This document shows, piece by piece, positions 2,593-33,882 of a stretch of 64,000 nucleotides of DNA; within the stretch, counting starts at the first letter, position 1; every line of letters starts with the position of its first letter. Position numbers and translations under genes: made by a program. Where the stretch lies: contig NC_021921.1 in assembly GCF_000470655.1 (NCBI RefSeq), positions 124,001 through 188,000 on the forward strand, read 5' to 3'. The notes below the pieces were generated by a model that saw only the letters and a list, made by a program, of their open reading frames with translations, was not told the origin of the DNA and made no database searches. The DNA comes from Halorhabdus tiamatea SARL4B (GTDB lineage Archaea; Halobacteriota; Halobacteria; Halobacteriales; Haloarculaceae).

Positions 2593-3855
2593 ATGACGAG
2601 GCCCACCCGACGTGGTATGGCGGCAGTGCTTGCAGCCCTGTTCGTGACGAGTGCAGGACTGGCAGGTGTTAGCGCGGCAGTAGCGACCCCCACCCAAAGC
2701 GGTGGTGAATCCATAACCACGGGATCATACACGGATACAACAGCGTCGAATTCCACCGCTGCAAACCCGTCACAGTCACCGAAGATATCCCCCATCCAGC
2801 AGAATCTGCTCCTGAGGCTGTTGGGAGTTTTCGATTACGAGAGTGTATCCGAGACGACAACCAGTCCGTTCGCTGTCGCTACGCTGCTGGATCTCGACAC
2901 CACAGCTGGAAGCGGGAACGAGTCGGGCGAGGTCTCTCTCGTGGACGAGTTGAACGAGACCAGTGATGACGATCTGAACGAGACCAGTGATGACGATCTG
3001 AACGAGACCAGTACTGACGATCTGAACGAGACCAGTACTGACGATCTGAACGAGACCAGTACTGACGATCTGAACGAGACCAGTACTGACGATCTGAACG
3101 AGACCAGTACTGACGATCTGAACGAGACCAGTACTGACGATCTGAACGAGACCAGTACTGACGATCTGAACGAGACCAGTACTGACGATCTGAACGAGAC
3201 CAGTACTGACGATCTGAACGAGACCAGTACTGACGATCTGAACGAGACCAGTACTGACGATCTGAACGAGACCAGTACTGACGATCTAAACGAGACCAGT
3301 GATGACGATCTGAACGAGACCAGTACTGACGAAGTTGAAGAAACACCGCTCAACGAGTCTGACGAGGGGATTAACGAGACGGAAGACGACCTGAACGAAA
3401 CTGATTCGCAAAACGATGACGATAACACGCAGGCTGACAGCAATGAGTCAGTGACCAACGACTCCTCAGAAGAGACCAGCGAAGACGAGCGTAGCAACCA
3501 GTCTCGAGAAGAGTCACAAAACGACAACACCGACGAGAGCAGCGACGACCAACACGAAGAGTCACAGGACGAGAGCAGCGACGACCAACACGAAGAGTCA
3601 CAAAACGACAACACCGACGAGAGCAGCGACGACCAACACGAAGAGTCACAGGACGAGAGCAGCGACGACCAACACGAAGAGTCACAGGACGAGAGCAGCG
3701 ACGACTCCCAAAGCGAGAGCGACGATTCCCAGGACGATAGCAACGCTCAGGATAGCAGCAACGACCAAGACGACAGCAGCGACGATTCGGACGAAGAGAG
3801 CACGGACGAGAGCGATACCGAAACCGGCGAAGACACCGACAGCGACGACAGCTAA
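2593..3855 (+). CDS. Secreted acidic glycoprotein with 16 NETS-type glycosylation repeats
   Basis: 420 residues. A Sec-type signal peptide is clear (RPTRRGMAAVLAALFVTSAG, then an Ala/Val-rich stretch to about residue 33). A short Ser/Thr-rich region (35-115) leads into an octapeptide array DLNETSTD (roughly residues 119-248), each copy with an N-E-T N-glycosylation sequon, then a second Asp/Glu/Ser array built from DESSDDQHEESQ units (about 312-375), and a very acidic tail. There is no C-terminal membrane anchor or PGF-CTERM signal, so it is probably released or bound ionically to the surface. The layout suggests a mucin-like surface or matrix protein. It is followed on the same strand by another acidic secreted protein and the ApbE/cytochrome genes. 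Confidence 0.8.
   Translation: MTRPTRRGMAAVLAALFVTSAGLAGVSAAVATPTQSGGESITTGSYTDTTASNSTAANPSQSPKISPIQQNLLLRLLGVFDYESVSETTTSPFAVATLLDLDTTAGSGNESGEVSLVDELNETSDDDLNETSDDDLNETSTDDLNETSTDDLNETSTDDLNETSTDDLNETSTDDLNETSTDDLNETSTDDLNETSTDDLNETSTDDLNETSTDDLNETSTDDLNETSTDDLNETSDDDLNETSTDEVEETPLNESDEGINETEDDLNETDSQNDDDNTQADSNESVTNDSSEETSEDERSNQSREESQNDNTDESSDDQHEESQDESSDDQHEESQNDNTDESSDDQHEESQDESSDDQHEESQDESSDDSQSESDDSQDDSNAQDSSNDQDDSSDDSDEESTDESDTETGEDTDSDDS
2947..3336 (+). repeat. 24-bp tandem array (16 copies) encoding NETS octapeptides
   Basis: The 12-mer aacgagaccagt recurs 16 times with an exact 24-bp period (first copy at 2953, last at 3313). Most units are identical at every base; exceptions are gatgac for actgac in the two first and one late copies, and one gatcta for gatctg. 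Synonymous positions have hardly drifted, which indicates recent expansion or homogenisation and predicts length differences between strains. Confidence 0.95.
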
Positions 3856-3888: not shown

Positions 3889-4197
3889 ATGAACATTCCA
3901 ATCCCCAACAATCGACTCGTTGCGCTCACCCTCGCTGGCGCACTCTTGACCACGGTCGTCGCCGCCGCCCTCGCAGTCCCCGGTCTCGGACTTGCCTCCC
4001 CTGGAGACTCAGATACCGCACCGACCGGCACGAACGTATCCGGACAGCAGGTCGCCGCAGACGCGCTCACCCCGAACCAGGACTTCAGCCCCGCTGTCCA
4101 AACCCAATCCAGCTATGAAGACGGCGAACACGAAGCGGAGGAACACGAAGAAGACGAAGAAGACGAGGAAGGCGAATATGAGGAAGGCGAGGAATAG
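3889..4197 (+). CDS. Small secreted acidic protein
   Basis: 102 residues with an N-terminal hydrophobic signal (VALTLAGALLTTVVAAALAV, residues 11-30), a Thr/Ser/Gln linker, and a C-terminal run of almost pure Glu/Asp (about residues 80-102). It begins 33 bases after the repeat glycoprotein and ends 6 bases before the ApbE gene, so it is most likely in one operon with them. The acidic tail could bind calcium or other cations. I do not recognise a family, and there is no SGAT-type flavinylation motif. Confidence 0.7.
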   Translation: MNIPIPNNRLVALTLAGALLTTVVAAALAVPGLGLASPGDSDTAPTGTNVSGQQVAADALTPNQDFSPAVQTQSSYEDGEHEAEEHEEDEEDEEGEYEEGEE

Positions 4198-4203
4198 GTC
4201 ACG

Positions 4204-5073
4204 ATGAGGGCACGTCTCCCAATGGCATACGAGCGTCTCGGTAAGGACGCCGGGGAATTCCGCTGCTGTGATACTGATTTCCGTATTCAAGCGATGGGGC
4301 TGCGAGCCAGCTATGCAGTAGCTGCGGTCCGGCGCACCGCGAAAACCCTCGAACAGCAACTCGACGCGTTCGACGCGACGAGCGCCGTGAGCGAACTCAA
4401 CAAGAAAGGGGCCGTCAAGAACGACCACGTCGCACGCCTCGTACGTCGTGGCCTCGAATACTACGACCGTACCGACCACGTCTTCGACATCCACCAGGGC
4501 CGCGTCGAACACGACCTCAAGGACTTCTTGCGTGGCACCCAGCATTCACTCCCCGACACCTTCGAGACAGGGACCGTCACAGTTGATAACGACCACGTAC
4601 GGACGAGCGCGCCACTCGACCTCAACGGGCTTGCCAAAGGCTACATCGTTGATCAGGCCGCAGAGACACTTGACGGACTCGGCCGCCATGGATTCGTCAG
4701 TGGCGGCGGTGACATGTCTCCACCGACGGGGCCAGTCGCGATCGAGAGCCCGTACGGCGACGATACCCCGCTGAAAACGCTGGATACCGACTGGGCGGTC
4801 GCTACCTCCGGCGGCTACCGGCGTGAGCGGGACGGGACGGATCACATCTACGACCCTACCGCAGAACGCCTCGGCTCCCGCCACGAGTCTGTCACCGTCG
4901 TGGCTCGGCGCGACTGTATGGAGGCTGACGCCGTTGCCACGACACTCGCGGCCCTCTCCCTCGCTGATGCGAAGTCACTTGCCCAGGAGTGGCCCCATCT
5001 GGACGCCCTCATCATTCACGACGGCGTCTTCCATCCGACGACGAATTTCACAGATCATGTCGTGGACACATAA
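4204..5073 (+). CDS. apbE: ApbE family FAD:protein FMN transferase
   Basis: 289 residues (MAYERLG at 4222 is an alternative start). Typical ApbE signatures are present: DLNGLAKGYIVDQA, the glycine-rich SGGGDM, and HIYDPTAERLG near the C-terminus, followed by EADAVATTLAALS. ApbE moves FMN from FAD onto a Thr of partner proteins that function in extracytoplasmic electron transfer. This copy has no obvious signal peptide or lipobox, unlike most bacterial ApbE, so its location is uncertain. It sits between two secreted acidic proteins and a membrane cytochrome, and the 3' end overlaps the next gene by 17 bases, suggesting translational coupling. No flavinylation target is recognisable beside it. 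Confidence 0.88.
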   Translation: MRARLPMAYERLGKDAGEFRCCDTDFRIQAMGLRASYAVAAVRRTAKTLEQQLDAFDATSAVSELNKKGAVKNDHVARLVRRGLEYYDRTDHVFDIHQGRVEHDLKDFLRGTQHSLPDTFETGTVTVDNDHVRTSAPLDLNGLAKGYIVDQAAETLDGLGRHGFVSGGGDMSPPTGPVAIESPYGDDTPLKTLDTDWAVATSGGYRRERDGTDHIYDPTAERLGSRHESVTVVARRDCMEADAVATTLAALSLADAKSLAQEWPHLDALIIHDGVFHPTTNFTDHVVDT

Positions 5074-5344
5074 GCAACGTGTCTCCATCGTTGCACTCGT
5101 AATCCTGGTTGTCTCGGTACCAGTGCTCTGGCAGGTTAGCAACGTGCGGGCCGCTTATGCGTCCGAAGACCAACAGAGTGAGCTCCTCACCCAGACGGTA
5201 ACGACACGGCAGGCACCCACTGACTACGACGGGGATACTGTCACCGATTCGACCGACAAGTGCCCGACGCGGCCGGAAGCCGAGAATGGATTTCAGGACA
5301 CGGACGGGTGTCCAGACGTGGTCGCAACCACGGGGGCCTCGTAA
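5057..5344 (+). CDS. Membrane-anchored protein with a thrombospondin type-3-like calcium motif
   Basis: 95 residues from the ATG at 5057, inside the end of apbE. Residues 9-28 form one hydrophobic segment (signal anchor). The C-terminal region reads DYDGDTVTDSTDKCP followed by NGFQDTDGCPD, matching the D-x-D-x-D-G...CP pattern of thrombospondin type-3 calcium repeats, with two cysteines that could pair. The stop codon overlaps the next start (TAATG). It probably sits on the outer face of the membrane next to the cytochrome encoded by the following gene. Confidence 0.7.
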   Translation: MSWTHKQRVSIVALVILVVSVPVLWQVSNVRAAYASEDQQSELLTQTVTTRQAPTDYDGDTVTDSTDKCPTRPEAENGFQDTDGCPDVVATTGAS

Positions 5345-5889
5345 TGTCCCAACTCGTCTGGCTCCTGGACCGTGGCGCGGGACTCGTTGCCTACCCGGCG
5401 TTGTACCTTGCGGTGCTCACGGGGATCTTCTACAACACTGAGGCATTCGGTGTGCTCCACACGGCGGCCCGTCGCGTCCACATCGAGATCTCGGTGTTTG
5501 CGATGCTTGTTACGCTTCTCCACGCTGGCCTCGGACTTCTGGACGCGTGGTTCGTCCTCTCCGGGGAAGCGCCCGCCCCAGCGTACTCGCTGTCGTACTT
5601 CCTCGGTGGCGTCGTGGTCGGAGTTGGCGCTCTCCTCATGCTCGTCGTGGCCGTGCTCGGCTTTACCGATGCCAAGCGATTCGACGACCCGTGGGGACCC
5701 CGCGTCGTGCACAGCTTCGCCTACGGCGGCTTCGGATTCGGGACGATTCACGTCGCCGCTATCGGCACTGACATCGCGGGTCTGATCGTTCCAGTGCTCG
5801 CTCCCTCAATGATGTTTCTCGCGTACGTGCTCCTGTTGCGACTCTTCGTGCTCCGGAGGAGCGAGCGGGCATCGCCGGCTAGTCAATAG
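5344..5889 (+). CDS. Ferric-reductase-like membrane cytochrome b
   Basis: 181 residues with about five hydrophobic segments (roughly 14-30, 46-70, 84-106, 120-140, 146-172). Two histidine pairs lie in adjacent helices: His46 and His60 (13 residues between) and His123 and His136 (12 between). This spacing is the bis-heme signature of the ferric reductase/NADPH-oxidase/YedZ transmembrane domain. There is no attached FAD or NAD domain, so electrons must come from a separate donor. It is translationally coupled to the calcium-motif gene and follows apbE, giving a plausible transmembrane electron path. Identification rests on histidine spacing and topology only. Confidence 0.68.
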   Translation: MSQLVWLLDRGAGLVAYPALYLAVLTGIFYNTEAFGVLHTAARRVHIEISVFAMLVTLLHAGLGLLDAWFVLSGEAPAPAYSLSYFLGGVVVGVGALLMLVVAVLGFTDAKRFDDPWGPRVVHSFAYGGFGFGTIHVAAIGTDIAGLIVPVLAPSMMFLAYVLLLRLFVLRRSERASPASQ

Positions 5890-6404
5890 CCGTCCCAGAG
5901 GCCGAGGAGCCGGTCAACGACGCGGTCAGTGAACGATTGCTGATGGATCGTATAGAGATATTTGACGCGATCCGGATCGGTCACCTCGTAGACGACGCTT
6001 CGTCCGTCCCGTTCTTTGGCGACGAGCTCAGCGTCAGCGAGTTTTGAAAGATGCCAGGAGATCGTCGATTGGGCTTTGTCGAGACGATCGCTCAGGGTAG
6101 TCGTCGAGAGCGGCCCGTCCGCGAGTAAGTGGGCGAGAATGCGGCGGCTGTACTCCCGGCGCAGGGCATTCATCACCGTCTGTTCCGCCTCTGCGAAGTC
6201 CGCAGCCGGGTAGTACCGCGTGTACTTGCCATCGTCAGAAATATCGACCAAGTCCTCGTCGACCAGCTGGCGGAGGTGGTACTGGAGCGTCCCCTGCGCG
6301 TATGAAAGCGTGTCCAGAAGCGCCCGGAAGTGAATCCCTGGAGTATCAGCGATCTCCTGGTAGATAGCTCGTCGTGACTCCAGCTCGATGTCTCTGTCAG
6401 TCAT
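5883..6404 (-). CDS. Regulator with two winged-helix domains
   Basis: 173 residues. Two winged helices follow one another: residues about 12-65 (HFRALLDTLSYAQGTLQYHL) and about 85-140 (STTTLSDRLDKAQSTISWHL), each in ArsR/MarR style, then a short helix ending in Trp-Asp-Gly-Tyr. Tandem-wHTH proteins of this kind are widespread in haloarchaea. It is convergent with the cytochrome gene, the two ends overlapping by 7 bases, and the next minus-strand gene lies 3 bases upstream. It may control the neighbouring redox cluster, but no operator evidence ties it there. Confidence 0.75.
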   Translation of the reverse strand: MTDRDIELESRRAIYQEIADTPGIHFRALLDTLSYAQGTLQYHLRQLVDEDLVDISDDGKYTRYYPAADFAEAEQTVMNALRREYSRRILAHLLADGPLSTTTLSDRLDKAQSTISWHLSKLADAELVAKERDGRSVVYEVTDPDRVKYLYTIHQQSFTDRVVDRLLGLWDGY

Positions 6405-6407
6405 TGA

Positions 6408-6695
6408 TCACTCTCTCGTCAACGCGATGAAAAACGTGAACAGGCCGCCGAGGATGAGGAGTGCACTCCCGTGTTCGAGCAACTCGGCCGTGCTCGCGCC
6501 AAGAGATGACAGCAGGGGGTATTCGAGGAAGACGACGAGCCCGTAGAGAGCGAACATCGCGTAGCCGGCTGTAACGATGCCCATACGGCGGTCACGTTCG
6601 CGGCGCCACGCCAGATAACTGAGCACGCTGAGTGCGACTGCCACGAGGAAGATACCGAAACTGATGTACTGTTCGAGAAGCGACGCAAGCGTCAT
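6408..6695 (-). CDS. Three-helix membrane protein
   Basis: 95 residues with three hydrophobic segments (about 8-27, 40-60, 70-92) and a basic loop (WRRERDRR) after the first. It ends 3 bases before the tandem-HTH regulator starts on the same strand, so the pair is an operon. This pairing of a small haloarchaeal membrane protein with a wHTH regulator is common; function unknown. Confidence 0.65.
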   Translation of the reverse strand: MTLASLLEQYISFGIFLVAVALSVLSYLAWRRERDRRMGIVTAGYAMFALYGLVVFLEYPLLSSLGASTAELLEHGSALLILGGLFTFFIALTRE

Positions 6696-7702
6696 ATTTG
6701 GTAGGGGTGACGCGGAGTTTTCAGTGACCGGCTATTTCTCAGCATGTCCGAGGGTACGGTCGGATGGTGCAAAACAATTGGCGTCCAATCGTCGAATAGA
6801 CGAGACAGAACAGAGCCAATTAATTCGACAGCCCGAGCAGGCCGAGTACTCGGGATCGTTGGGAAACGCTTCGATCATCCGTAATGAGCGCTCTATTCCG
6901 TCCACTGAACCGGCGAACGGACGGCGAAGTGGGTTCACCGCCTCGAGTTCGCGGCCCTTGAGTCGCACATGGCTTGCGAACAGAAGACGAAATCCTTCGT
7001 GTCTCAAAGCACTCGACTCTGCGGCAGTCACCAATACGCGTATGCAAAAACCTGGGCCGAATACACTCATACGTTGACGGAACGGTTCGCGTCACGAGCA
7101 ACGAGAGTGACTGAACGTGGCAGCGAGCGGTGACCTGATCGCAACCATTGAGGGTCTCGCTCGTCGCGGTCCCGTTCTTATACTGGTGGCGATACTATTT
7201 CGAAATGCTCTGGCACGCCGTCGTGCCAGATATCTCTACGAACGTATAGCCACCAATACAGTGTCACGGCGAATCTTTCGGTCACTGTCAATGATATCGA
7301 CCTCGCCGTCAGTACTGTCCAGGATCGTATTCGGGTACAGGCATCAACGGTGTGGGACGCGTTTCGTCTGCTACGGAGTGAACCTAGCCGGTTGCGGGGC
7401 CACTCACGAGTCCTGTCCGAGGCTGAGCTGACCGTCGAGATACGAATAGGCAGTGCCGTGATTGAGAGTCCCGGAACGGACGCCGTCGCCGGGTGGCTGG
7501 CACACCAACTCAGACTGGGGCCAGTCGAGGTTTGCCTCCGGACGATACTGCCAGCCATCCTTCGGTTCCGATAACGGAACCACGGTGTTGCCCGAGCAGA
7601 CGACCAGAACTCGTTGACCCATCCTGAATTTGACTGGTGTCAACGAGAGAAGGTTACCACGAGGTGAGGTGGAGATTTAACCCATCCGGGTGAGTTTCAA
7701 GT
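6696..7702. other. About 1 kb without a confident gene
   Basis: GC is lower than in the flanks and no frame looks well conserved. The minus strand at 6732-7070 can encode 112 residues containing CSGCRINWLC, but codon choice is not haloarchaeal-like and no family is recognised. The plus strand at 7152-7574 carries a better candidate, listed separately. No RNA gene signature was seen. Confidence 0.5.
7152..7574 (+). pseudogene. Possible decayed ORF, start lost
   Basis: One frame is open from 7152 to the TAA at 7572-7574. From about 7246 it reads like a real protein (SVTANLSVTVNDIDLAVSTV, later VWDAFRLLRSEPSRL and VLSEAELTVEIRIGSAVIE), with Asp/Val-rich strands followed by a helical LLR segment. 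It resembles a small haloarchaeal family with a strand-rich domain, from memory. There is no credible ATG, and the upstream part (7152-7245) is Ser/Arg-rich and looks non-coding. Either the true start is the GTG at 7350, giving only 74 residues, or this is a remnant. Confidence 0.35.
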
Positions 7703-18180: not shown

Positions 18181-19293
18181 CTACAGGATACCCATCTCGT
18201 CGAGTCGCTCAGGCAGATACGTATCAGTCACGAAGTCAAGGCCGTAGGAGGCAAGCGCCTGCTGTTCGGACTTCTTGTCGATATCGAGTTGGAGTTCGAT
18301 CTGTTCTTCCCAGTAGTCGGTCTGGAAGCGGGGGTCCTCGAGTTCGGATTCGAGGGCGTTGACGTCCGAATCCGCGAGGGGGTCGGTCGGCAGGTCGTAC
18401 TCGACAATGTCCTCGGGCTGGACGCCGATGAACTGCGCCTCGGGCGTCGCCAGGTACTTCGAGAGGTGCGCGGACTTGATCGACCCGTACGCGACGGAGC
18501 CGTAGATTCGATACGACCACGGGTCGCCGTCAGTGAACACCGTCACCGGCAGATCGAGTTCGTCGTGGAGGCGCTTGGTCAACCGCCGGGTCGCACGGGC
18601 GGGCTGGCCGCCGAGGTGGACGACCAGCGCGTTGTACTCGTCGTCGAAGCCGTTCTCGACGAGTCGATCGCGCATGCCGCCGGTCTCGACACAGAGGACG
18701 AAGTCGGCGTCATTGTCCAGGAAATCGATGGTGTCGGGATCGTTCGGGATCTGATAGCCGCCCTGGCCCACGTCGTCCTGGCAGTGGATCTCCCGGTCGC
18801 CGCGGTTGGTCTGCTCGCGGAGACGGAGGGGTCCCATCACCTTGGCACCCGATTCCTCGGGGCGCATGTGGAACTCCTCGCGGCGCACGTCCGAGACGAT
18901 CTCTAGGTCCTCGATGAGCTGATTTGACTCGTCCTGGCTGTTGAACTGCGCTTCGTCGAGGTCCCACGATTCGCTCAGGTAGTAGAGTTCACGCAGCGTC
19001 GAAGAGCGGTCTTCTTCGAGCTGGTTTGCCAGGAAGTCGATCGAATAGATGACCTTCAGGAGTTTCTGTGCCCCCCGGACGCTGTTGGCAGAGCGCGTGC
19101 TCTTGCGGTCGCCGTAGACCCAGACCTTCTGTTCGGGGTCGTACTCGATGTTGGTCTTCGTCCGGGTCGGGACGTCCATGTGGGGCACGTCGCCGCGCTC
19201 GAACTGGTCGTAGAACTGTGCCGCCAGTTCGATCAAGCGCTCGCGGGCGTCCCCGTCGCTTCCGTCTGCCGTTTCGCCTGTGTCCGTGCTCAT
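18181..19293 (-). CDS. top6A: DNA topoisomerase VI subunit A
   Basis: 370 residues. The CAP-domain active site is [12 protein letters not shown] with the tandem tyrosines at 104-105 (the second is the expected catalytic one). The TOPRIM domain includes [17 protein letters not shown] and [14 protein letters not shown] (DxD metal site). Size and order match archaeal Spo11-like Top6A. The start overlaps the end of top6B by 4 bases (ATGA), so the subunits are translated in a coupled fashion. Together they relax and decatenate DNA by ATP-dependent double-strand passage. Confidence 0.97.
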
Positions 19294-22200
19294 TGTTCAC
19301 CGTCCACTGTGAGTTTCTCCTCGGCGATACCGTCGATCGAAATGTCGAATTCGGCGTCGTCGCTTACTTCGTACGTCAAAGCGGCGTCGTCGCCGCTCGA
19401 AACGGTCGGCGACCACTTGATGAACCACTCGCCGTCCATCTCGACGACGCGCGCGTCGTCGGCGTCGGCCTCGACGTTCGCCGGTTCGGCCGTCACGATG
19501 TCCGTGATCTCGACGTCGGCGTTCGTGGTGTCGTTGTTCTCGACGACGAGCCTGACCGTCCCGTCCTCGCGCTGTCGCTCGAGCAGGACGTTGTTCATGA
19601 TCCGGGCCAGCGAGTCGTCGATGTGCAACTCAGCGCGGCCGGTCACTGCGGCCAGTTTCGTCGCCATCTCCGGGAGGATCGTCCCGAGTTTGTCCTGTTT
19701 TTCCCGGCGCTGGCGACGCGACCGGCGCTCGTTGAGGAAGGACTTGAGTTCGCGGGCCGCCTCGCGGATCGCGAGTTCGATCTCGTCTTCGATCTCGGGA
19801 ATGTTGGCGATTGCGTCCTTGGATTCGCTCGTGAAAGGGACGTTCGTCGAGGCGACGTGGATCATCACGACGGCCGGGCCGTTCGGAATGCCGCTACCGC
19901 CCGGCTGATCGAGGCCGTAGTTGCGCCAGTTGATCGTCTTGACGACGTCCGTCGTCGCACAGGCCCCGCGCTGATAGACCAGTGGCACGCGATTCGCGAA
20001 GCGCATCACGTCGACCGGGCCGCCCTCCTCGAGTTCGCCGCCGTAGGCGATCCCCGCCTCGACGATGAACGGATCGCCGCCGTGGACGGAAGCGTCCCGC
20101 GTCGAGGCCGCGTAGAAGTCGGCGTCGAACTCCTTGCGGAGTCCTTCTTCGACGAGCCGTTCGGAGATCGGGGCGAGACAGCCGGTCGGCGGCGCGATGA
20201 TGTCGGTCTCACGCATCGCTTCTAAGAGTTCGGCGGCCGCGTCGCGGTCGTCGGCGAGTGTCGAGACGTTTGGCACATCGTCTGGGACCGTTGCCATCAC
20301 GCCCCAGATCTCCTCGAGGACGTTCTCGCGGGCCGTCTCGCCGATCGTCGCGTCGTCGTACTCCTCGGTGTTCTCGGCGGCGCGCTCGACGTATTCGGCG
20401 AGTTCCTCGCGGGTAGCCCGGTGGCGCTCGTCGTCACTGTCCTCGAACTTCGCGGCGATCCGGTCGGCCAGCCCCTCGATCGTCGCGTCGTCCTTGCGGT
20501 CGCTGGTGGCTCGATCGACCAGGCCGTAGAGATCCGAGGCGAGCGTCTCGCGCTGATCGGCTTCGTCCGTGTCCCCGATGATTTGAGCCCACGCGGCCGC
20601 GGTCGCCTTCTCCCGGACGGTACTGCCGAACGTCGTGCCGAAGCCCTCGGCGGCGGCTTCGGCCGCCTCGTCGACGATCGCACGGAGTTCGTGGTGAGCG
20701 AGGCGTTCACGGTCGTCGACGGCGTCGGCCACTTCGCGGGCGAAGGACTTCGTCGCGTCTTTGCTCTTGTTGGCGACGGCAGCCCTGACGGCCACCTCGA
20801 CGTCGCCCTCGTGGACCTGCGGCGGCCGCCAGGCCATCTCGCGGCCGTCGTACCGATCCCGGAAGTTGTCGAGGACCTTCTCGGACGTTTTGCCGCCCAC
20901 GCGGGTGAACTCGCCCTGCAAGAAGCCGGACACCGAATACGAATCGGTCGCTTCGAGCATCTTCAGGAGCGTCCCGAGTTCGACGCCGTGTGGATGCGGG
21001 CGGATCTCCTCGGTCTCGGCCGGGAGGTCCGCGCCCTCGACGCGTTCGAACTTCGCCGGCTCGGCCATGTTCGGCTCGTGGAACTCGATCCGTGCGTGGG
21101 GATTGACGACGGCCGTGTGCTTGATGTAATCGTGGAGCTGTTGGCGCGCCCGGAGGTTCGCCTCCAGCTCGAGTTCGATCCGCGTGCCGTGGGGACGGTC
21201 CCACGCCGTCGTCTCGTCGACGTCGATCTCGGGCTCGTTGGTGTCGGTGTCGATGATCAACTCGAAGTAGTGGGCCTCCTCGGAGCCTTTGGTCCGGGAG
21301 GTGATCTTGGCGGGCTTGCCGCTCGTCAATTGCGAGTAGAGGACGGCGGCGCTGATGCCGATGCCCTGTTGGCCGCGACTGTTCTTCACCGAGAGTGCCC
21401 CGTCGTTGACCACGACGAAGTTCTCGTCGTATCCCGTTGTTCCGGGAACTGAGATGTCATACACGTACTCCGGTGACTCGGTTCGCTCTACGTCCTTGAC
21501 CGGGAGGAGACACATGTCGGTATCGGTGATCCCGTGTAGATCGTGGATCGTCTCCCAGATCTCTTCGAGGCGCTCGGTCGGCTGATGGTCCCGGTCCAAC
21601 AAGCCCATCTCTTTGAGATTGTGTACGTACCGGGGTTTCGTTACGTACTCCCCCTCCAGTGCATCCTCGATGAGTTCCCGATAGACTTCGGCATGTTCGG
21701 GGCTCGATCCGATACCGACGCCGAGGAGTAATCCCGGAATCGTATCCGGAACGGTGTCCCGACCGACGTGACCGACCTGATAGTCGGCCAAGAGTGACGT
21801 CGGGACGCGCTTGTACTGTTGTTCCCCCGGCGGGAAACGTTCGCTGAAGACGTCCGTGAGAGTCACGTCCTCGCTATAGACCTTCGTCCGGTAACGTGTG
21901 CTCGGATCGTCGGCGTAGCCGTTGTCCGACGTCGCAACCTCCGTACTCGCGAGGACACCCTGCATGTTCCACAGCACCGACAGTTGTCTGGCGAGCCGTT
22001 CGCTGGTCGTCGTGTGTGACAGCTCGTTGCTCGGATGCGAATCGGACCCATCACCCTGGTAGAGCGCCGTGATGAACTCCCGTTGTAGTTCCGGCGGCGA
22101 CCTGAAGACGAATTCAGGGATCTGTTTGTCCTGGGCCCGGTCGCCACAGGCCTCTTCGAAGAACATCGAAAATGGCGACCCGAACGCTTTCACGCGTGTC

Positions 22201-23432
22201 GAGTTCCGTGCTCGATCGACTGTCGTCGTTCGGCCACCGATACCGGCGATGGCTTCTTCGGTCGCTGTGATCAACTCCTTCTCGTGGGAACCGAAGGTGA
22301 ACCCGACCTGCCGATCCCCGACGTGCCCCTCGGCGACGTAGTATCCGAGCAGTCGCATGAACGACGTGTCGAGCGGAATAGAGACGGGCATCGTCGTCTC
22401 CTTCCCGCCGACCTGATACGTCTTGAACTGACAGTCGGCAGCCTTCTCCTCCCAGCCGAGTTCGATCACCGTCTCTGCCGGCAGGTACCCCTTTTCGAGG
22501 TAATTGGTTTCGAGACTGTCCTTGAGTACGTCCACGCCGTTATAACGGTGATAGGTCCGCTTTCGGTCGCTTTCCGGCGATGGCTTCTTTCGGATTCGCT
22601 CCCCCTCTCGAAGCTGTTCCAGCGTTTCCGTCTCGAAGCCATAGACGTAGACTCGCCGCCCGTCGAGTTGCTCGGTAGTGATGTATTCGAGCAGGTTCAC
22701 CGACTCGACGTGCTCGTCGAAGGAGGGGATCTCTCTCGGGGCGAGAACGACATCACCGGTTTGCAGGTCGCCCGCTTTCACTTCTCTCGTTTCGCCCGAA
22801 CTGGTCAGGGAAAACAGGCTGTGATTGCCCGTCACTTCGACCGTCCGGCCCTTCTCGGTGGTGATCTCGTAGGTGTCTTCAGTCGTCTCGTGACGGATCG
22901 CATGCGTCACTGGCTCCCAGGACAACTCGTGAGTCTCCCGGTCGAACGACGGCACTTCGATTCCTTCAGGGATTGGTCGCGTCGCTTCTCCGTTTTCGGG
23001 GAGGTACGCGTCACAGAGCACACCGATCGGAACGGTATCGACGACGCCATCCCGTCGAACCAACACCTGCTGGTCCGGTGTCAGCGACTGCTCGCGCTTG
23101 TGGAACCGGCTGCCGTACAGCAGCTTCCCGAAGACTTTGGGGAGTTGTTCGCGCGTGATCCCCGGGCCGTTGTCCTCGATGACAAGCCGGTAGTACTCAC
23201 CGACGTCCTCGATCTCGACGTAGACGTCGGGGAAGATGTCAGCCTCTTCGCAGGCGTCGAGGCTGTTGTCGACGCCCTCTTTGACGGCCGTGACGAGTGC
23301 CCGGGCTCCCGAGTCGAACCCGAGCATGTGCTTGTTCTTCTCGAAGAACTCGGCGATGGAGATCTGGCGCTGACTCTCGGCCAGCTCCTCGGCGATTCCC
23401 TCCTCGCCGAGCGTCGACTGCATCGATGGCAT
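19290..23432 (-). CDS. top6B: DNA topoisomerase VI subunit B precursor containing an intein
   Basis: 1380 residues before splicing, 811 after removing the intein (residues 116-684). N-extein: GHKL ATPase motifs [13 protein letters not shown] and IEDNGPGI; C-extein resumes at [18 protein letters not shown], the ATP-lid glycine box, followed by the transducer region ([20 protein letters not shown]). The C-terminal 500 residues include the acidic insertions and the Ig-like end usual in haloarchaeal Top6B. The insertion point is three residues before the ATP-lid GQQGIG, the most conserved part of the ATPase. The gene is upstream of top6A with an ATGA overlap. Confidence 0.96.
21381..23087 (-). 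mobile_element. Intein in Top6B (569 aa) with LAGLIDADG-type homing endonuclease
   Basis: Boundaries: N-splice junction REQ/S (intein Ser1, codon at 23087) and C-splice junction KN/S (Asn569, codon ending at 21381). Visible blocks: A ([14 protein letters not shown]), B ([11 protein letters not shown] with the TxxH-like His), dodecapeptide motifs [12 protein letters not shown] and [13 protein letters not shown] ([20 protein letters not shown]) and G (DGALSVKN). The +1 extein residue is Ser. The penultimate residue is Lys instead of the usual His, a variation that can slow or alter Asn cyclisation. Both endonuclease acidic positions (Glu in YVAEG, Asp in YQGDG) remain, so homing may be active. 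A Top6B intein is known from Haloquadratum. Confidence 0.95.
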
Positions 23433-33057: not shown

Positions 33058-33882
33058 ATGGAAGTCGATATCCTCGACTTCGTTGAACAGTGTCGGCACC
33101 TAGTCAAACAAGCGTTGGGGAAGCACGCGGGCGAGCCCGCCAGCGGCGGGTTCGCCCGCTGGAAGCACGTTGTTCTGCACTGTTTTCGGCTCGAAGAAGA
33201 CCATAGCTACCGCGAAACGCCGAATCGGCTGGAATACATGGCTGAGATTCGTGACGTACTCGACTTAGATCGAGACGACCTCCCAGACTACAGCACGATT
33301 TACAAGTCGTTCGATCGGCTGAAAATGTGGGTGTGGCGGGCGCTGCTGCGCGTTTCAGCGCAGCAGCACCCGCAGTCTGGACATGCAGCACTTGACAGCA
33401 CGTTCTTCGACCGCCGCTCAGCTTCGTCGTACTACCGCCAGCGGTCGGGAAGTAACGTACAGACACTGAAAGTGACGACACTAACCGATACGGAGTCACT
33501 TGCCGTTCTCGATGTGCAGTGTCACGCCCAATGGAGGCATGATACGAAGACTGGTCCGCAGATCGTCCGCCGGAACGCGGACGATCTGCATACTGTCGCC
33601 GCCGATAACGGGTTCCAAGACTGGCACACCGAATACGAGATTACTGCACTGGATCTCGACTATCTCGTTCACTATCGCGGTTCGTCGCTGATGGCAACCG
33701 CGAACAACGCGCTCATCCGGTCAAAAGGCTACTCTCAGCGCTGGATGGCAGAAACATCCTACTCGACAACAAAGCGCTCGCTCGGCGATGCCGTGCGAGC
33801 GCTTGGCTGGTATCGACAGTTCCGGGAAATCGTCCTGATGTTCGCCATTACGAACATAGAATCGCTTTGTGAGCCACTCTAA
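33058..33882 (+). CDS. DDE transposase, IS5-like
   Basis: 274 residues. D-D-E candidates: Asp in AALDSTFFDRR, Asp in VAADNGFQDW, and Glu in MAETSYSTTKRSLGDA, the last being the IS5/IS4-type E(2)R(3)K region. The frame is intact from ATG to TAA. Four strong inverted repeats are embedded in the coding sequence, described as a separate repeat entry. Closest resemblance is to haloarchaeal ISH elements of the IS5 family; the exact subgroup was not determined. Confidence 0.88.
   Translation: MEVDILDFVEQCRHLVKQALGKHAGEPASGGFARWKHVVLHCFRLEEDHSYRETPNRLEYMAEIRDVLDLDRDDLPDYSTIYKSFDRLKMWVWRALLRVSAQQHPQSGHAALDSTFFDRRSASSYYRQRSGSNVQTLKVTTLTDTESLAVLDVQCHAQWRHDTKTGPQIVRRNADDLHTVAADNGFQDWHTEYEITALDLDYLVHYRGSSLMATANNALIRSKGYSQRWMAETSYSTTKRSLGDAVRALGWYRQFREIVLMFAITNIESLCEPL
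33127..33804 (+). repeat. Four strong hairpins within the IS5-like transposase gene
   Basis: Stems and loops: 33127-33141/33145-33159 (15 bp with one G-U-compatible mismatch, 3-nt loop); 33342-33351/33358-33367 (10 bp perfect, 6-nt loop); 33558-33570/33577-33589 (13 bp perfect, 6-nt loop); 33772-33781/33795-33804 (10 bp perfect plus an inner CGGC/GCCG stem). Their centres are 212, 219 and 215 bp apart. An 8-bp stem (TCGCGGTT/AACCGCGA) is at 33675-33703. Such stems are far longer than chance would give in a gene of this size. Confidence 0.85.

Follow-up and report, generated by a model that had tools for sequence, protein, structure and literature searches.

A tandem N-E-T octapeptide protein as probable first cistron of a haloarchaeal ApbE-type operon

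MsrQ-like flavinylation clusters, for which an FMN-binding-domain protein is described as typical (Meheust et al. 2021, PMC8238504), are by analogy the nearest described system to the gene module considered here. For sequon-dense proteins, a survey of Haloferax volcanii identified 39 N-glycoproteins with 102 sites, 19 of them confirmed on a single protein, HVO_2160, which is AglB-dependent and the largest protein of that organism (PMC8241124). Halomucin of Haloquadratum walsbyi has 9159 aa and mucin-type domains, and halomucin-type proteins span 2079–9159 aa (PMC1544339). The literature searched, largely outside subscription journals, described neither a haloarchaeal ApbE cluster nor arrays of N-E-T octads. 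Many exported-looking, sequon-rich acidic proteins of haloarchaea lack a known role; in the window analysed here, a 64,000-nucleotide stretch of the Halorhabdus tiamatea SARL4B genome, a putative operator and the gene order place one of them and tie this sequon-array protein, in a way that can be tested, to a named membrane module.

The gene in question (2593–3855, + strand) encodes a 420-aa protein with a hydrophobic N-terminus, an array of N-E-T octads and an acidic tail rich in S, D, E and N, for which no Pfam or NCBIfam match was obtained. Sixteen 24-bp units, in register at 2950–3333 (+), encode LNETS[T/D]D[D/E]; Tandem Repeats Finder places the array at 2944–3332 with a period of 24, 16.2 copies and 97% matches. 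N-E-T is present in 16/16 units; LNETSTDD gives way to LNETSDDD in three of them, the final unit ends in E, and the array is free of Lys and Arg. Only five distinct DNA sequences occur among the sixteen, 12 being identical, and mean pairwise DNA identity is 95.7%. The sixteen near-identical N-E-T octads reported in a preliminary description of this DNA were thus borne out, and the recent copy-number change it proposed fits the near-identity of the units in DNA. Such near-identical in-frame tandem units (12/16 with one DNA sequence) are a trait that the gene shares with length-variable (contingency-type) repeat surface proteins. The gene holds a further tandem array (3508–3704, +; 84-bp period; EESQ/DESSDDQH type), which lacks sequons. 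The opposite strand is likewise open across the repeat (2835–3743); we prefer the + frame, whose product has a hydrophobic N-terminal stretch and whose start lies 38 nt past a putative operator.

The protein carries 24 N-x-S/T sequons, every one beyond residue 50 and some outside the array, as anticipated earlier, although the total had been put at about 20. Of these, 22 lie past residue 110, where 2,000 residue shuffles gave 9.4 on average (sd 2.4) and never more than 18. Residues 6–34 form the sole hydrophobic stretch, with a helix predicted at 6–24, and the protein is apparently exported. Beyond residue 28 the composition is of the disordered type: S, D, T, E, N and Q account for 81% of the chain, cysteine is absent and 139 acidic residues face 4 basic ones. 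AlphaFold run without an alignment returned a mean pLDDT of 44.7, which is compatible with disorder and weak as evidence. The genome contains two STT3-type matches (PF02516, over cut-off), the better of them an archaeosortase-associated oligosaccharyl transferase (TIGR04154, 840.5 bits; cut-off 450), and by these profiles it encodes an AglB-family oligosaccharyltransferase. Given this gene and the known N-glycoproteins of Haloferax volcanii, N-glycosylation of the repeat protein is plausible. Like HVO_2160, the protein is apparently exported, has many N-x-S/T sites and comes from a genome with an AglB-family transferase; it differs in its 420-aa length, in its 24-bp tandem array and in having predicted rather than confirmed sites. 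The exported look of the protein and the transferase gene support the preliminary description in part; the label 'mucin-like' fits poorly. The resemblance to halomucin extends to apparent export, acidity, potential glycosylation sites and a proposed role as hydrated shield, but here N-linked sequons lie on a short, Asp/Glu-rich chain that consists of N-E-T octads and is linked with a redox operon, with no Pfam match in place of the very large size and mucin-type domains of that class.

Sequon-dense stretches are common in haloarchaea, also in proteins with other neighbours, and this counts against the reading favoured below. Triple NET patterns occur in 82/243 haloarchaeal genomes, so that an octad array alone is no rarity, and triple DET patterns in 55/243; these are DNA patterns with coding frames unchecked, and some DET matches look non-coding (for example in genomes G071 and G033). 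The single-motif background is reversed, with 112 DET against 50 NET in 697,272 bases drawn from sequences other than the 243 genomes. Set against that background, the excess of triple NET speaks for selection of clustered sequons across haloarchaea. Other sequon-octad proteins, with DINETETD/DINESDSS units (locus L076) or EEPPANET units (L082, L098–L101), share acidic, NE[S/T]-rich repeats and an exported look with the protein studied here but have other folded parts, and the likeness is probably convergent. Treating all sequon arrays as one family failed: the ORFs of L078, L083 and L085 have no array, that of L081 belongs to another protein class, and L080 gave no ORF at the settings used. 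The remaining haloarchaeal sequon-array proteins were treated as convergent. Elsewhere in the same genome (G000:C2:1514034–1515431, corresponding to L128 3035–4432) lies another ORF rich in sequons and Asp, distinct from the repeat gene, in which LNETEEDLNET stretches and GPPEHAGPD repeats occur, and an ORF of the same kind occurs in a genus mate (G075, L129). ORFs that look AglB-like by eye, with NET-rich C-terminal tails, were seen in L092 and L109.

Next to the repeat gene lies a putative operator. Two copies of ATTCGACGGTTGGACG, 19 bp apart, form a tandem 19-bp site (2520–2554, +) that ends 38 nt upstream of the start codon. A third copy (6782–6797, −), which differs from ATTCGACGGTTGGACG by one base at an ambiguous position, lies upstream of two genes, one for a regulator and one for a small membrane protein (6408–6695, −) that belongs to the conserved cluster. 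The window holds three matches to the putative operator against a shuffle mean of 0.25, and in the whole 3.15-Mb genome the exact site occurs only three times, all at the ApbE cluster, with four others at two mismatches. The regulator (5883–6404, −) has two winged-helix domains (Pfam HTH_HVO_0163_N and HTH_20, over cut-off) and is a candidate operator-binding protein. In 45 named haloarchaeal loci, fetched using an ApbE alignment, a site of this kind precedes the small acidic gene or the cluster in 40, by a pattern defined with the first of these loci already seen. The small acidic gene starts 38–47 nt past the site in 19 of the 40; in 15 of them a 19-codon mini-ORF starts 37–39 nt past it and the acidic gene comes next. 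Mini-ORFs of this MAERNDRHVEDSGSEPRGS type, possibly encoding a leader peptide, stand directly before the small acidic gene in L148, L151–L154, L156, L168 and others.

A cluster-specific site 38 nt upstream, and a site of the same kind before the cluster in 40/45 loci, make it probable that the repeat gene is cistron 1 of an ApbE/haem-type operon under operator control, a place that the preliminary description had missed. On present sequences, the positional and operator link between the repeat gene and this ApbE-type redox operon is firm. It bears on a rival reading, in line with the preliminary description, in which a mucin-like surface glycoprotein of variable length stands on its own and its ApbE neighbourhood is functionally meaningless. 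Near-identical units, many sequons, an AglB-family gene and the many sequon-rich haloarchaeal proteins without ApbE-type neighbours would all suit such a protein; the cluster-specific operator directly upstream, the similar placement of relatives in two other genomes and the missing large mucin-type architecture would not, and we consider it unlikely. A co-regulated surface accessory is the likelier role. The reading that we favour, with modest confidence, is an exported, disordered, acidic N-E-T protein that serves as such an accessory and is encoded by the first cistron of an ApbE-type extracytosolic redox operon.

The gene order behind the repeat gene is that of a conserved cluster. A small acidic gene (3889–4197, +) begins 33 bp behind the stop codon on the same strand; its product has a conserved hydrophobic N-terminus, a P-N-x-x-F-T-P motif and an acidic tail, and the gene is usually cistron 1 or 2 of the cluster. 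The protein was found in 45/45 named loci, with PN..[FY]TP in 40/45. It is followed by an ApbE-type FAD:protein FMN transferase (4204–5073, +; Pfam PF02424, E 2.2e-35), whose profile matches solved ApbE chains, and by a TSP3-like protein (5057–5344, +) with one hydrophobic N-terminal stretch, a PF02412 match below cut-off and a C-terminal TTGAS. Among 44 relatives of the latter, the C-terminus reads TTGAS in 40 and TTRAS in 3, and is unreadable in 1. The ApbE motif is given as D-x-x-[S/T]-G-A-[S/T] (PMC12052999); the TSP3-like protein has the TGAS core with the Asp two residues too far upstream, so its tail makes it a candidate ApbE substrate rather than a full match. The repeat protein itself was rejected as a substrate, because [S/T]GA[S/T] is absent from it. 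A TTGAS tail next to apbE resembles a natural C-terminal flavin tag, and in the Halobiforma locus (L185) the tail is retained while the calcium-type loops of the TSP3-like protein look degraded.

The next gene (5344–5889, +) encodes a probable di-haem b protein, a ferric-reductase-like membrane protein of 181 aa in which four histidines (H46, H60, H123 and H136) are invariant. The histidine pairs are spaced by 13 and 12 in 41/41 relatives of readable length, a spacing like that of H101/H115 and H209/H222 of NOX2 (PMC9711523). Pfam Ferric_reduct (PF01794) matched 18/24 members at E up to 1 but below its cut-off (best E 0.00041), the window's own protein included, for which neither a Foldseek search at E up to 0.001 nor a profile search of PDB sequences gave a match. 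VIA-align related it to NOX5, STEAP, DUOX and NOX2 with Z of about 8–10 over 154–176 residues; we rejected the fold as proof of a NOX/STEAP-like identity, since designed helical bundles score as high (Z up to 12.7), and the structural comparison is compatible with a ferric-reductase-like protein but not decisive. As in MsrQ-like clusters, apbE has beside it the gene of a small membrane protein, whose four histidines would suit two haems by their placement. Unlike the typical cluster described, the window has a TSP3-like candidate substrate ending in TTGAS and no FMN-binding-domain protein (PF04205 was absent from ten window proteins scanned, all cluster genes among them); acidic proteins and a regulator linked to the operator are present in addition.

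A relative of the window's ApbE occurs in 34/293 genomes of the order, counting the window's own, and this type of ApbE was absent from all five other members of the genus examined, a point against our favoured reading. The TSP3-like protein, the 181-aa membrane protein, the regulator and the small membrane protein are each present in 44/45 named loci, the missing case being L158, which stops shortly past apbE. Haloterrigena sp. H1 has four copies of the cluster (L171, L174, L179 and L192), though the last has TSP3 and membrane-protein genes that cannot be read through. Relatives of the repeat gene were far scarcer, and this counts against our favoured reading. They were found in 2/45 named loci, those of Halorubrum sodomense (L154) and Halorubrum californiense, and a sequon-rich acidic ORF lies beside ApbE in 2/36 loci of a second set (9–12.5 kb, 33 genomes; two loci with partial ApbE matches), namely L042 and L067; H. 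sodomense is counted in both sets, L042 of genome G044 being L154. Sequon-rich ORFs in the H. amylolyticum and Halovenus salina loci proved to be of other kinds. Because most cluster loci lack it, the repeat gene appears dispensable to the module.

The relatives in H. sodomense (189 aa) and in genome G152 (171 aa) have three NETDTDD-type units each and acidic tails of different length. Both stand behind a tandem operator of their own and before a same-strand b-cytochrome-like gene, so that two different operons in the presumed regulon have a repeat gene between operator and next cistron. The b-cytochrome-like gene follows straight after the operator in Halorubellus salinus (L038/L148) and L039–L041. 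It encodes a membrane protein of roughly 236 aa with histidine-rich helices and is absent from the window; the protein stays sub-threshold in Pfam (PF01292, E 0.026; PF01794, E 0.14), with no NCBIfam match at E up to 0.01. In L148 (5661–6368, −), L154 and L067 the gene stands behind a second, divergent operator. The H. californiense contig breaks off within the array, past three full identical units. From the three-unit relatives and this broken contig, array length differs between species (16 versus 3 units); variation within the species, as proposed earlier, is hypothetical.

These relatives were found only via gene position and repeat pattern. Wider searches gave matches in 2/52 genomes of the genus of G044, in 1/32 of the genus of G152 and, order-wide, in 5/293 at E up to 0.001, two of these weakly and the window's own through the repeats only. 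The non-repeat N-termini of the window and Halorubrum proteins gave no alignment above shuffles (257 and 119 of 1,000 reach the score), which counts against our favoured reading and leaves the repeat, the position and the operator as the grounds for kinship; by these, common descent of the window and Halorubrum repeat genes is likely, the alternative being convergence. In 195 genomes the unique N-terminal part returned five weak matches besides itself, three with internal stops, and no related ORF, and the full protein searched against genome contigs gave 37 pattern matches, none of which was confirmed. One plasmid match, to a Staphylococcus record, was set aside as low-complexity (24.8% identity over 27% of the query).

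Across three complete arrays and the cut one, N, E and T are constant in 25/25 units, with positions 1, 5 and 6 varying. This constancy speaks against the view that the polyanionic chain binds cations or iron for the redox module and that the sequons are incidental or serve only to keep it soluble. The 139-to-4 excess of acidic residues, the sequon-free acidic tail and neighbours that are ferric-reductase-like and acidic-tailed would suit that role, but haloarchaeal proteins are generally acidic, and we hold it to be decidedly unlikely. Less credible again is the view that the repeat expanded like a microsatellite, selfishly or neutrally, within an acidic tail that is itself dispensable, and has no function of its own. 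The DNA identity of 12/16 units, the three units of the relatives and the missing gene in most cluster loci would be expected of such an expansion; an open reading frame, and an N-E-T octad that other genera also have by this cluster, encoded there by different DNA units, would not.

We return to a co-regulated surface accessory. The repeat protein is probably a disordered, polyanionic, N-glycosylated exported protein that is made together with an extracytosolic redox module. The cluster-encoded regulator would act on the tandem 19-bp site and switch the whole set together, with the repeat gene co-transcribed with the apbE operon. Its product would be exported with signal cleavage, and AglB would then probably glycosylate many, or at least some, of the N-E-T sites. 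This would leave a charged chain with attached sugars on the outside of the cell, close to membrane-bound proteins presumed to carry flavin and haem, where it could serve as a hydrated shield, a spacer or a cation-binding brush. Gain and loss of 24-bp units by slippage or recombination would set chain length and site number, and the three-unit relatives point to large changes in repeat number between lineages. In a more speculative form, which we think doubtful, ApbE of an extracytosolic haloarchaeal flavin/haem module for electron transfer would modify a natural TTGAS tag at a C-terminus, and some lineages would have added to the regulon a polyanionic, N-glycosylated N-E-T brush with a length tuned by repeat copy number. 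The analysis also brings up the conserved haloarchaeal ApbE cluster itself, with its unusual candidate substrate ending in TTGAS.

Elsewhere in the window, a DNA topoisomerase VI subunit B-like ORF (19290–23432, −) has an apparent intein-like insertion by eye, and an ORF that looks transposase-like by eye (33058–33882, +) is flanked by ribonuclease-like and squalene/phytoene-synthase-like ORFs.
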